The notes below the pieces were generated by a model. The model was not told the origin of the DNA, did no database searches, and saw only the letters and a list, made by a program, of their open reading frames with translations. DNA of 64,000 nucleotides from Anaerolineales bacterium (lineage in GTDB: Bacteria; Chloroflexota; Anaerolineae; Aggregatilineales; UBA2796): positions 558,001 to 622,000 of the forward strand of contig JABTTZ010000001.1 in assembly GCA_015075625.1 (NCBI GenBank), given 5' to 3'. The position numbers were made by a program, and so were the translations under genes. Of the stretch, positions 13,619-16,232 are shown one piece after another; positions within the stretch are counted from its first letter, which is position 1; every line of letters starts with the position of its first letter.

Positions 13619-15010
13619 TCAGATCGGCTCGAAACGGGCCGTGAAGTGCCGTAGGAAGGACGGCTGCCAGACAATCCGATAGCCGGGCACATTCTCCCGC
13701 GCTGCGCCGACGCTTAATATTACCTCGGCCAGATAGTCCACATGACTCTGCATGTACACTCGGCGCGGGAAAGCAAGCCGCACCAAATCCATCGCAGCAG
13801 GCTGCTCAGAGCCATCCGGTTTACGTCCAAACATGACCGATCCTATTTCTACGCTGCGAATGCCACCGGCCAGATACAGCGCATTGCTAAGTGCCCAACC
13901 CGGATATTGCGCATCCGAAAGATGGCTCAATGTGGCGCGTGCATCGATGAACACGGCATGACCGCCGGGCGGCTGTACGGTTGGTACCCCGCCCGCACTC
14001 AGTTTTTCCGCTAGGTATTCGATGGAGCGAATTCGGTAGCGCAGGTAGTTCAAGTCCAACGCCTCGTACAGACCGACCGCGACAGCCTCCATATCATAGC
14101 CCGCCATGCCGCCGTAAGTCGGGAAGCCTTCGGTCAAGATCAGCAAGTTGCGTGCTTTCTCAGCCCAGACACTATCATTTAGGGCGAGGAAGCCCCCGAT
14201 ATTGGCCATACCATCTTTTTTTGCGCTCATGGTACAGCCATCGGCTAGGGCGAACATTTCCCGTGCGATATCGATGGGCGTCTTATCGTGGTAGCCGGTC
14301 TCACGTTCGTGAATAAAGTAGCTGTTTTCAGCAAAACGACAGGCATCAATAAGAAAGGGGATGCTGTGTTCGCGCGCCACGTCGCTCACCGCCCGCACAT
14401 TTTCTAGGCTGACTGGCTGACCGCCGCCGGAATTGTTGGTGATAGTGATCATGATGAAGGGGATGCGCTCACGACCCACTTCGCGGATTGTGTCGCGCAG
14501 GGCATGGATATCCATATTGCCCTTAAAGGGATGGACAAGCGCCGGTTGGCGGCCTTCAGCGATGACCAAATCGCGTGCATTCGCACCAACGTATTCGATA
14601 TTGGCACGGGTTGTATCGAAGTGCGAATTATTCGGAATTACGTCACCCGGTTTCACCGCCACCTGACATAGCAGACGTTCAGCGGCACGACCTTGGTGTG
14701 TCGGGATAAAGTGCTTGAAACCGAAAATATCTTGTACGGCACTTTGTAATTTGAAGAACGAACGCGCCCCTGCATACGATTCATCGCTGGCGATCATTGC
14801 GGCCCACTGCTGTGCAGATAGTGCGCCAGTTCCGCTGTCGGTCAGCAGGTCGATCAGCACCTGATCACCCCGCAGCAAGAACGGGTTGTAAAAAGCCTTC
14901 TGCAGCGCGGCTTCACGTTCGTCTGGGCTGATCATGGCGATTGGCTCGACCGAACGGGTACGAAATGGTTCGATGATGGTCTTTGGGTTGGGGTAGTTCA
15001 TTTTGGGCAT
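13619..15010 (-). CDS. tnaA: Tryptophanase (L-tryptophan indole-lyase)
   Basis: PLP enzyme that splits L-tryptophan to indole, pyruvate and ammonia. The sequence aligns throughout with tryptophanase/tyrosine phenol-lyase (463 residues). The PLP lysine is K265 in TMSAKKDGMANIGGF. Three positions favour tryptophanase over tyrosine phenol-lyase: Asp132 in HFDTTR (Thr in the lyase), Ile in SVEIGS where the lyase has the substrate-binding Arg, and His455 in LRHFTARF (Phe in the lyase). AAGGA lies 8 bases before the ATG at 15010. No tnaC leader or tnaB permease is beside it. It lies between a decayed IS630 transposase and a truncated glycosyltransferase copy, so horizontal acquisition is likely. 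Confidence 0.93.
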   Translation of the reverse strand: MPKMNYPNPKTIIEPFRTRSVEPIAMISPDEREAALQKAFYNPFLLRGDQVLIDLLTDSGTGALSAQQWAAMIASDESYAGARSFFKLQSAVQDIFGFKHFIPTHQGRAAERLLCQVAVKPGDVIPNNSHFDTTRANIEYVGANARDLVIAEGRQPALVHPFKGNMDIHALRDTIREVGRERIPFIMITITNNSGGGQPVSLENVRAVSDVAREHSIPFLIDACRFAENSYFIHERETGYHDKTPIDIAREMFALADGCTMSAKKDGMANIGGFLALNDSVWAEKARNLLILTEGFPTYGGMAGYDMEAVAVGLYEALDLNYLRYRIRSIEYLAEKLSAGGVPTVQPPGGHAVFIDARATLSHLSDAQYPGWALSNALYLAGGIRSVEIGSVMFGRKPDGSEQPAAMDLVRLAFPRRVYMQSHVDYLAEVILSVGAARENVPGYRIVWQPSFLRHFTARFEPI

Positions 15011-15109
15011 GGGTAGATTCCTTGGAAAAGCATATTCGAGGTGACTTTACCGCGTCTGCTTGTTTGCTGACAAACTCACAGCAGATTTGATCGGGTCGAT
15101 TTTTCACCC

Positions 15110-15412
15110 TAAATACATCCAAAATGAAACTTACGGATGCGACCCAATATTGAGCATTGCATCCGGCAAAGAAATCCTGTGCTGCTGACAGTAAGGCTTT
15201 GACGGTTTCAAACAATTCACGATGGGTCACTTCCCGACGGAACTGCCGCCACAGATGCTCAATCGGATTGAGTCAGGGGCTATACGTGGGTAGATACAAT
15301 ACGACCAATCGCCTGGCTGCCGCTTGCACCACTGTCTCAACATCCACCTGGATCCCGGTCTCTTCTGCCAGATAGTCTGCCAGACGCTGCAAGGGTCAGA
15401 AAGACAAGCGAG
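15110..15412 (-). pseudogene. IS630-family transposase remnant
   Basis: Decayed transposase. Read on the minus strand, one frame gives an HTH-like part (PLQRLADYLAEETGIQV) then, after only about a dozen residues, the C-terminal signature LPTYSP-stop-LNPIEHLWRQF and REVTHRELFETVKALL. The central DDE catalytic region is missing, so there is an internal deletion. Two in-frame TGA codons occur, the second exactly where the family has a conserved Trp (YSPWLNPIE). No terminal inverted repeats were identified. It sits directly upstream of tnaA and its left end abuts the truncated glycosyltransferase copy. Confidence 0.75.
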
Positions 15413-15557
15413 AGTAATCCCCACCTAAGGTGATGATCGTTGCCTCATCGCCATGAAAGGGGACGGCAAACACCCCCACCAGCGTGTAGGCAAGCAGCGC
15501 CGCAAGGATCACGGGAAGTCCGTATCGGGATCGCATCCGAAACAACATTGTAGACAT
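15412..15557 (-). pseudogene. Truncated copy of the GT39-like glycosyltransferase 5' end
   Basis: The minus strand from ATG 15557 encodes about 48 residues starting MSTMLFRMRSR and containing VPFHGDEATIITLGGDYSR, colinear with the start of the intact glycosyltransferase at 13252 (APFHGDEATIISMGGDYYR). The reading then runs straight into IS630 remnant sequence. The upstream 25 bases, including TACAAT, are identical in both copies. This is either the stump of a second paralogue whose body was replaced, or a duplicated promoter/5' segment. Confidence 0.8.
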
Positions 15558-15565
15558 AGGGCAGA

Positions 15566-15571: not shown

Positions 15572-15668
15572 GCGTGGCTTTTCTGGCTATTGAGGCAGCA
15601 TTTCTTGTGAGGATGAATTACCCATGCGGGTCGGGTTGTTTCCCCTATAGTGGGTGGCAAAGGGGTAG

Positions 15669-15691
15669 TTTGAGGGGGCTTCCCCCTCAAA
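15669..15691 (+). terminator. G/C hairpin, copy A (terminator-like)
   Basis: TTTGAGGGGG, loop CTT, CCCCCTCAAA: a perfect 10-bp stem. The identical hairpin occurs at 58946-58968, each time followed by short A-rich sequence, so it is also a small dispersed repeat. Confidence 0.45.
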
Positions 15692-15743
15692 AACTCGCTG
15701 CCCTCTCTCCCCTTGCGGGGGTGAGGACGTAACATCTATAAAT

Positions 15744-16232
15744 GTGTTCTATAATAAGAGAATGGATGAGCAAACGTTTGTTCAACGCTTTAATGCAATA
15801 AAAAAACAAGGGTGGATTCCTTCACGGCGTCAAGGACCCACCGGAATCGGTTTTACACTCGAAACCGCGCTTGGTTTAACGGAGACGAATGTTGCTATCC
15901 CCGATTTGGGAGCGATTGAACTAAAAGCCCATCGGGTGGGGACACAATCTTTGATCACTCTTTTCACTTTCAATCGAGCCGTCTGGAAAATGCATCCCCT
16001 AACCGCCATTCGCCGCTATGTGGTTGGCAATCGGAAGGTGAAGGGCGTCCTGCTGCCCACCGATCTCGCCATTCGTCATTTCTTTGAGGCGCAGGGCTTC
16101 ACCCACATCGCCACCCACTATCGGCACATTCCCAATAAACGAATGCCCGCTAAAAACAGCCCCTCCAACGTAGCGGGCAGCACCGAGGTGACCATGACGC
16201 AGGAAACGGTTGTGGTGATGAAACGCACCTAA
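15744..16232 (+). pseudogene. Chimeric restriction-modification relic (MvaI/BcnI endonuclease N-part fused to DNA methyltransferase C-part)
   Basis: A 162-codon intact frame made of two unrelated halves. Residues 7 to about 92 match the start of MvaI/BcnI-type type II endonucleases: QGWIPSRRQGPTGIGFTLET, the nuclease core PDLGAIELKAHR (D54, E59, K61) and SLITLFTFNRAVWKM. From about 93 the sequence is instead the end of a DNA methyltransferase: VGNRKVKGVLLPTD, then HYRHIPNKRMPAKNSPSN and TMTQETVVVMKR. It looks like an in-frame deletion across adjacent R and M genes. Neither enzyme would be complete; both the rest of the nuclease and the SAM-binding/catalytic part of the methyltransferase are missing. 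A start at ATG 15762 is equally possible, with TATAAT at 15750-15755. Confidence 0.75.
15750..15755 (+). promoter_or_regulatory. -10-like hexamer (TATAAT) at the R-M relic
   Basis: Perfect TATAAT six bases before the ATG at 15762. If used, translation from 15762 would be nearly leaderless. Confidence 0.4.

Follow-up and report, generated by a model that had tools for sequence, protein, structure and literature searches.

The open reading frame at positions 15744 to 16232 (+) of the window, i.e., the entire 64,000-nucleotide stretch of an Anaerolineales bacterium analysed here, is very probably a recent deletion relic of a type II restriction-modification (R-M) operon, best explained by one event. 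It joins the start of an MvaI/BcnI-type restriction endonuclease gene (R) to the end of a DNA methyltransferase gene (M) (Table 1). The frame comprises 162 codons from a GTG and has no internal stops, as the first-pass annotation had stated; since the part that resembles intact endonucleases starts only with the ATG at position 15762, this codon is taken as the real start, and the product is thereby shortened to 156 amino acids.

Table 1. Features of the fused reading frame and of the debris next to it
Feature	Position	Strand	Basis
Transposase-like remnant with internal stop and truncated membrane-protein start	15010..15560	-	Three-frame reading
N-terminal 86 codons, MvaI/BcnI-type restriction endonuclease gene (~37% of 230-codon gene)	15762..16019	+	PF15515, 2oa9, identity to intact R
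PD-x4-ExK catalytic motif (putative)	15903..15926	+	Sequence; D, E, and K kept in all aligned intact homologues
Deletion junction: TAT codon (Tyr) and the next G, found in the same register in the two parental genes	16017..16020	+	Codon comparison with intact operons
C-terminal 71 codons plus stop, type II DNA methyltransferase gene (~17% of 424-codon gene)	16017..16232	+	PDLC03322, identity in relatives

The frame combines parts of two R-M genes

The N-terminal half, previously annotated as MvaI/BcnI-like with a PD-x4-ExK core, matches the Pfam family MvaI_BcnI (PF15515; E = 1.8e-17, profile positions 2 to 64 of 227) with 64.5 bits against a gathering cut-off of 25, and R.MvaI in the PDB (2oa9; E = 2.3e-8), which confirms that assignment. 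It is 58 to 64% identical to residues 1 to 86/91 of the intact endonucleases of genomes G005, G008, and G148. The motif residues are D48, E53, and K55 counted from the ATG (D54, E59, and K61 in the 162-codon frame); as they are conserved and fit what is generally known of PD-(D/E)XK enzymes, we presume them to be the catalytic residues. The C-terminal half matches the PADLOC type II methyltransferase profile PDLC03322 (N6/N4-type; E = 6.6e-22, positions 371 to 442 of 446), over which it keeps the segment YVVGNR..IPNKRMP..NSPSN, and it is 61 to 67% identical to the final 70 residues of the methyltransferases in three genomes of the same family (G009, G005, and G008), so that the annotated methyltransferase end is borne out as well. 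As judged by sequence comparison, the profile and structure matches of both halves are far above chance. An NCBIfam search with the chimera gave no match.

Both genes are truncated, and the pair of endonuclease and protecting methyltransferase that makes up an active type II R-M system is not encoded here. A complete nuclease domain with its recognition part, as in the intact endonuclease of G005 (PF15515 positions 4 to 227), is lacking, and the cofactor motif DPYCGTG and the catalytic motif TSPPYGDS of the relatives' intact methyltransferases are missing. Neither the methyltransferase body nor another copy was found elsewhere in the genome.

Intact operons in relatives and the deletion junction

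Intact R-M neighbours in related genomes, a check suggested in the first-pass annotation, turned up in five genomes that share the relic's family or order (G005, G008, G029, G148, and G075). The endonuclease gene is followed on the same strand by the methyltransferase gene, with an overlap of 4 bp (1 bp in G075); order and protein families are those of the relic, identity over the shared parts is 55 to 65%, and the operons are colinear with the relic and match it at both ends. Unlike them, the relic is devoid of R residues 87 to 230 and M residues 1 to ~353. The distance from R start to M end amounts to 1,901 to 1,970 bp in the five intact operons versus 471 bp in the relic; therefore, ~1.43 to 1.50 kb are missing. 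A tree built from both halves places the relic as sister to G005 and G008, which belong to its own family, on a branch of ordinary length. The GC content at third codon positions amounts to 0.43 for the N-terminal and 0.74 for the C-terminal half, the corresponding values in G005 and G008 being 0.48 and 0.50 for R and 0.67 and 0.71 for M; each half keeps the codon composition of its source gene.

None of the genomes compared showed this particular locus in intact form, which counts against a deletion. The genus is represented in the comparison by one further genome, G001, which contains neither half; the downstream gene pair is conserved there, and the upstream surroundings are different, so that G001 is uninformative on the ancestral locus. 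Regarding gene order across lineages (loci L022 to L051), R precedes M in five genomes of the order and in an Acidilobaceae archaeon, and M comes first in the remaining bacteria seen, among them G123 of this order. The latter arrangement, found in most bacteria outside the order, cannot yield the relic's fusion by one deletion, whereas the former can.

The junction, which the first-pass annotation had placed near residue 92 of the frame, lies exactly at this residue, a Tyr encoded by positions 16017 to 16019. Compared with G005, G148, and others, similarity to R extends as far as the Tyr of ..AIRRY, and similarity to M sets in with this same Tyr, that of YVVGNR... At the DNA level, R of G005 reads CGC TAT GG, M of G005 reads TGT TAT GTG, and the relic reads CGC TAT GTG. 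TATG is a 4-bp match; at least 4 bp would be shared at a random junction in ~2% of cases. We infer the TATG repeat and the exact deletion ends from the sequences of relatives that are only 55 to 65% identical.

The ancestor would have been a two-gene type II R-M operon with an MvaI/BcnI-family endonuclease first and a methyltransferase second, overlapping by ~4 bp. One deletion of ~1.43 to 1.50 kb, with its ends at the short repeat TATG, where both genes have a Tyr codon, and presumably arising by slippage or end-joining there, would have removed the endonuclease from residue 87 to its end together with the first ~350 methyltransferase residues. If the same Tyr codon stood in both ancestral genes, one deletion suffices, and the two Tyr codons would have kept register, leaving the surviving 156-codon frame open; the frame was kept by luck, at odds of ~1 in 3. 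The single in-frame deletion put forward in the first-pass annotation is thus supported both by the R-then-M operons in five genomes and by a breakpoint on a shared codon.

Another genome of the family, G010, carries a remnant (L050, 6500 to 7500) between the ABC-transporter genes that border the operon of G005 and G008. R has disappeared, and the M start (to DPYCGTGTSLVEG) runs out of frame into IPNKRMP... By its sequence, this is an independent second relic of the operon, with different breaks and a lost frame. Behind it lie two genes resembling a nucleotidyltransferase/HEPN pair, an identification presumed by eye. The comparable deletion in G010 speaks against the idea that the fused frame is an assembly artefact in which an intact operon was collapsed. 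That the species is represented by a single assembly would favor such an error; however, the contig measures 2.1 Mb in a five-contig genome and the mere 4 bp shared at the junction are too short to collapse an assembly, which leaves an artefact extremely unlikely.

Search for joined homologues

One intact frame would also be expected of a normal small protein family whose two halves belong together. Yet the halves match separate proteins of 230 and 400 to 450 amino acids, and none of 43 loci drawn from a wide range of phyla joins them in this order. Searches of 154 genomes of the order and of genome, plasmid, and viral-contig collections yielded neither a further copy of the fusion nor a joined homologue. 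All homologues found have the halves in separate longer genes or, once, in a natural fusion of opposite order. Within the collections searched, a normal family is refuted, and we give it next to no credence. Full-length joined homologues had been named beforehand as the finding that would overturn a deletion; none having turned up, the deletion reading stands.

Three plasmid matches seemed to cross the junction; the two inspected were ordinary full-length methyltransferase or endonuclease genes. A Dehalococcoidia locus (L040, 1635 to 3554) contains a 639-codon frame in which a methyltransferase is fused to an endonuclease, M first; this frame includes some N's and may reflect an assembly join.

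Surroundings and a second endonuclease locus

The relic sits amid debris, with a beta-eliminating lyase gene on one side and two genes for small membrane proteins on the other. The upstream debris listed in Table 1, whose transposase-like part we take, by eye only, to be of the IS630/DDE type, is consistent with a gene graveyard. An intergenic repeat of ~54 bp (CCCCTCAAAAACTCGCTGCCCTCTCTCCCC type) lies at positions 15659 to 15711; it is dispersed through the genome, which has at least 40 additional full or partial copies. The same genome also encodes a second, intact-looking MvaI/BcnI-family endonuclease of 267 amino acids (L077, 5459 to 7125; G000:C1:1291458-1293124), adjoining a gene for a 244-residue DNA methyltransferase-like protein.

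Age and functional state of the relic

At columns conserved in at least 90% of ~27 homologues, the relic shows 0 of 24 and 0 of 22 possible departures (46 columns). In a comparison within its own clade, its departures do not exceed those of intact members. Under neutrality since the deletion, this translates into fewer than ~0.03 substitutions per site (95% bound). Such a count points to a recent deletion, as the first-pass annotation had supposed. Note that a protein still under constraint would likewise show an open frame and all conserved residues, and that zero departures do not by themselves show a working protein; the data cannot separate recency from constraint, and recency needs no extra assumption.

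The relic keeps PD-x4-ExK but has lost ~60% of the nuclease, and the missing R residues 87 to 230 hold most strands in the predicted model of intact R. A fold prediction of the chimera, proposed earlier, was run with AlphaFold2 and came out poorly (pLDDT of 57, pTM of 0.40, confidence being lowest around the junction), whereas intact R was predicted well (82 and 0.77) from six sequences only, such thin alignments weakening the comparison. Because the remaining β-strands and the recognition part are gone, the endonuclease half is expected to be unable to fold or to cut; the methyltransferase half would have lost its function because the cofactor and catalytic motifs are missing. The relic is almost certainly inactive.

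The TATAAT hexamer pointed out in the first-pass annotation is present at positions 15750 to 15755, but a search for a promoter-like pair at this place found none, a matching -35 element being absent, and the hexamer ends just 6 bp before the ATG; it is therefore no evidence of expression. The suggestions that the frame is still expressed and that its product might retain DNA or protein binding found no support.

A deletion product may, in principle, have been put to use since the fusion was made, e.g., as a DNA-binding or dominant-negative protein. The open frame, the complete set of PD-x4-ExK residues, and the absence of departures at 46 conserved columns would agree with this; however, recency accounts for all of them, as neutral drift of up to ~3% per site is compatible with zero changes and frame retention has the one-in-three odds given above. 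Moreover, the fold core and the recognition part are missing, the fold prediction is poor, and neither an upstream promoter-like pair nor a copy elsewhere was found. We therefore regard such use as very unlikely, and as unlikelier still that the fusion protein is expressed and selected as a new small protein, e.g., one binding DNA or the products of the second MvaI/BcnI-type system.

Comparison with known systems and implications

MvaI cuts CC^WGG and BcnI cuts CC^SGG (PMC7337904). The relic shares the catalytic N-terminal segment with PD-x4-ExK of R.MvaI (2oa9/2oaa) and R.BcnI (2odh), but unlike them it breaks off ahead of the recognition part and the bulk of the nuclease sheet, and cutting of CC^WGG or CC^SGG by the relic is not expected. 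Truncated R-M genes are common, an example being the NgoAXIII remnant of Neisseria gonorrhoeae with its truncated methyltransferase (PMC6789123); both are leftover R-M gene fragments with longer versions in relatives, whereas in the present case one deletion appears to have linked two genes in frame. Hybrid genes from the fusion of R-M components have also been mentioned (PMC4176335). These hybrids and the Dehalococcoidia M-R fusion resemble the relic in placing R and M sequences within a single frame, but they join whole enzymes, and the relic consists of two fragments without methyltransferase motifs. In line with the literature on R-M remnants, the relic would represent a total loss of function.

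The recent deletion relic described here is a tidy, ordinary example of how an R-M system, itself an ordinary kind of bacterial DNA defence, is lost, and it does not reveal a new system. As restriction and protection would have been lost together, the cell would have faced no self-cutting by this system. The locus thus offers a clean, roughly datable case of an R-M system whose death spares the host, restriction and protection probably having gone in one deletion; in the relative G010, an operon of this kind was lost through other breaks.
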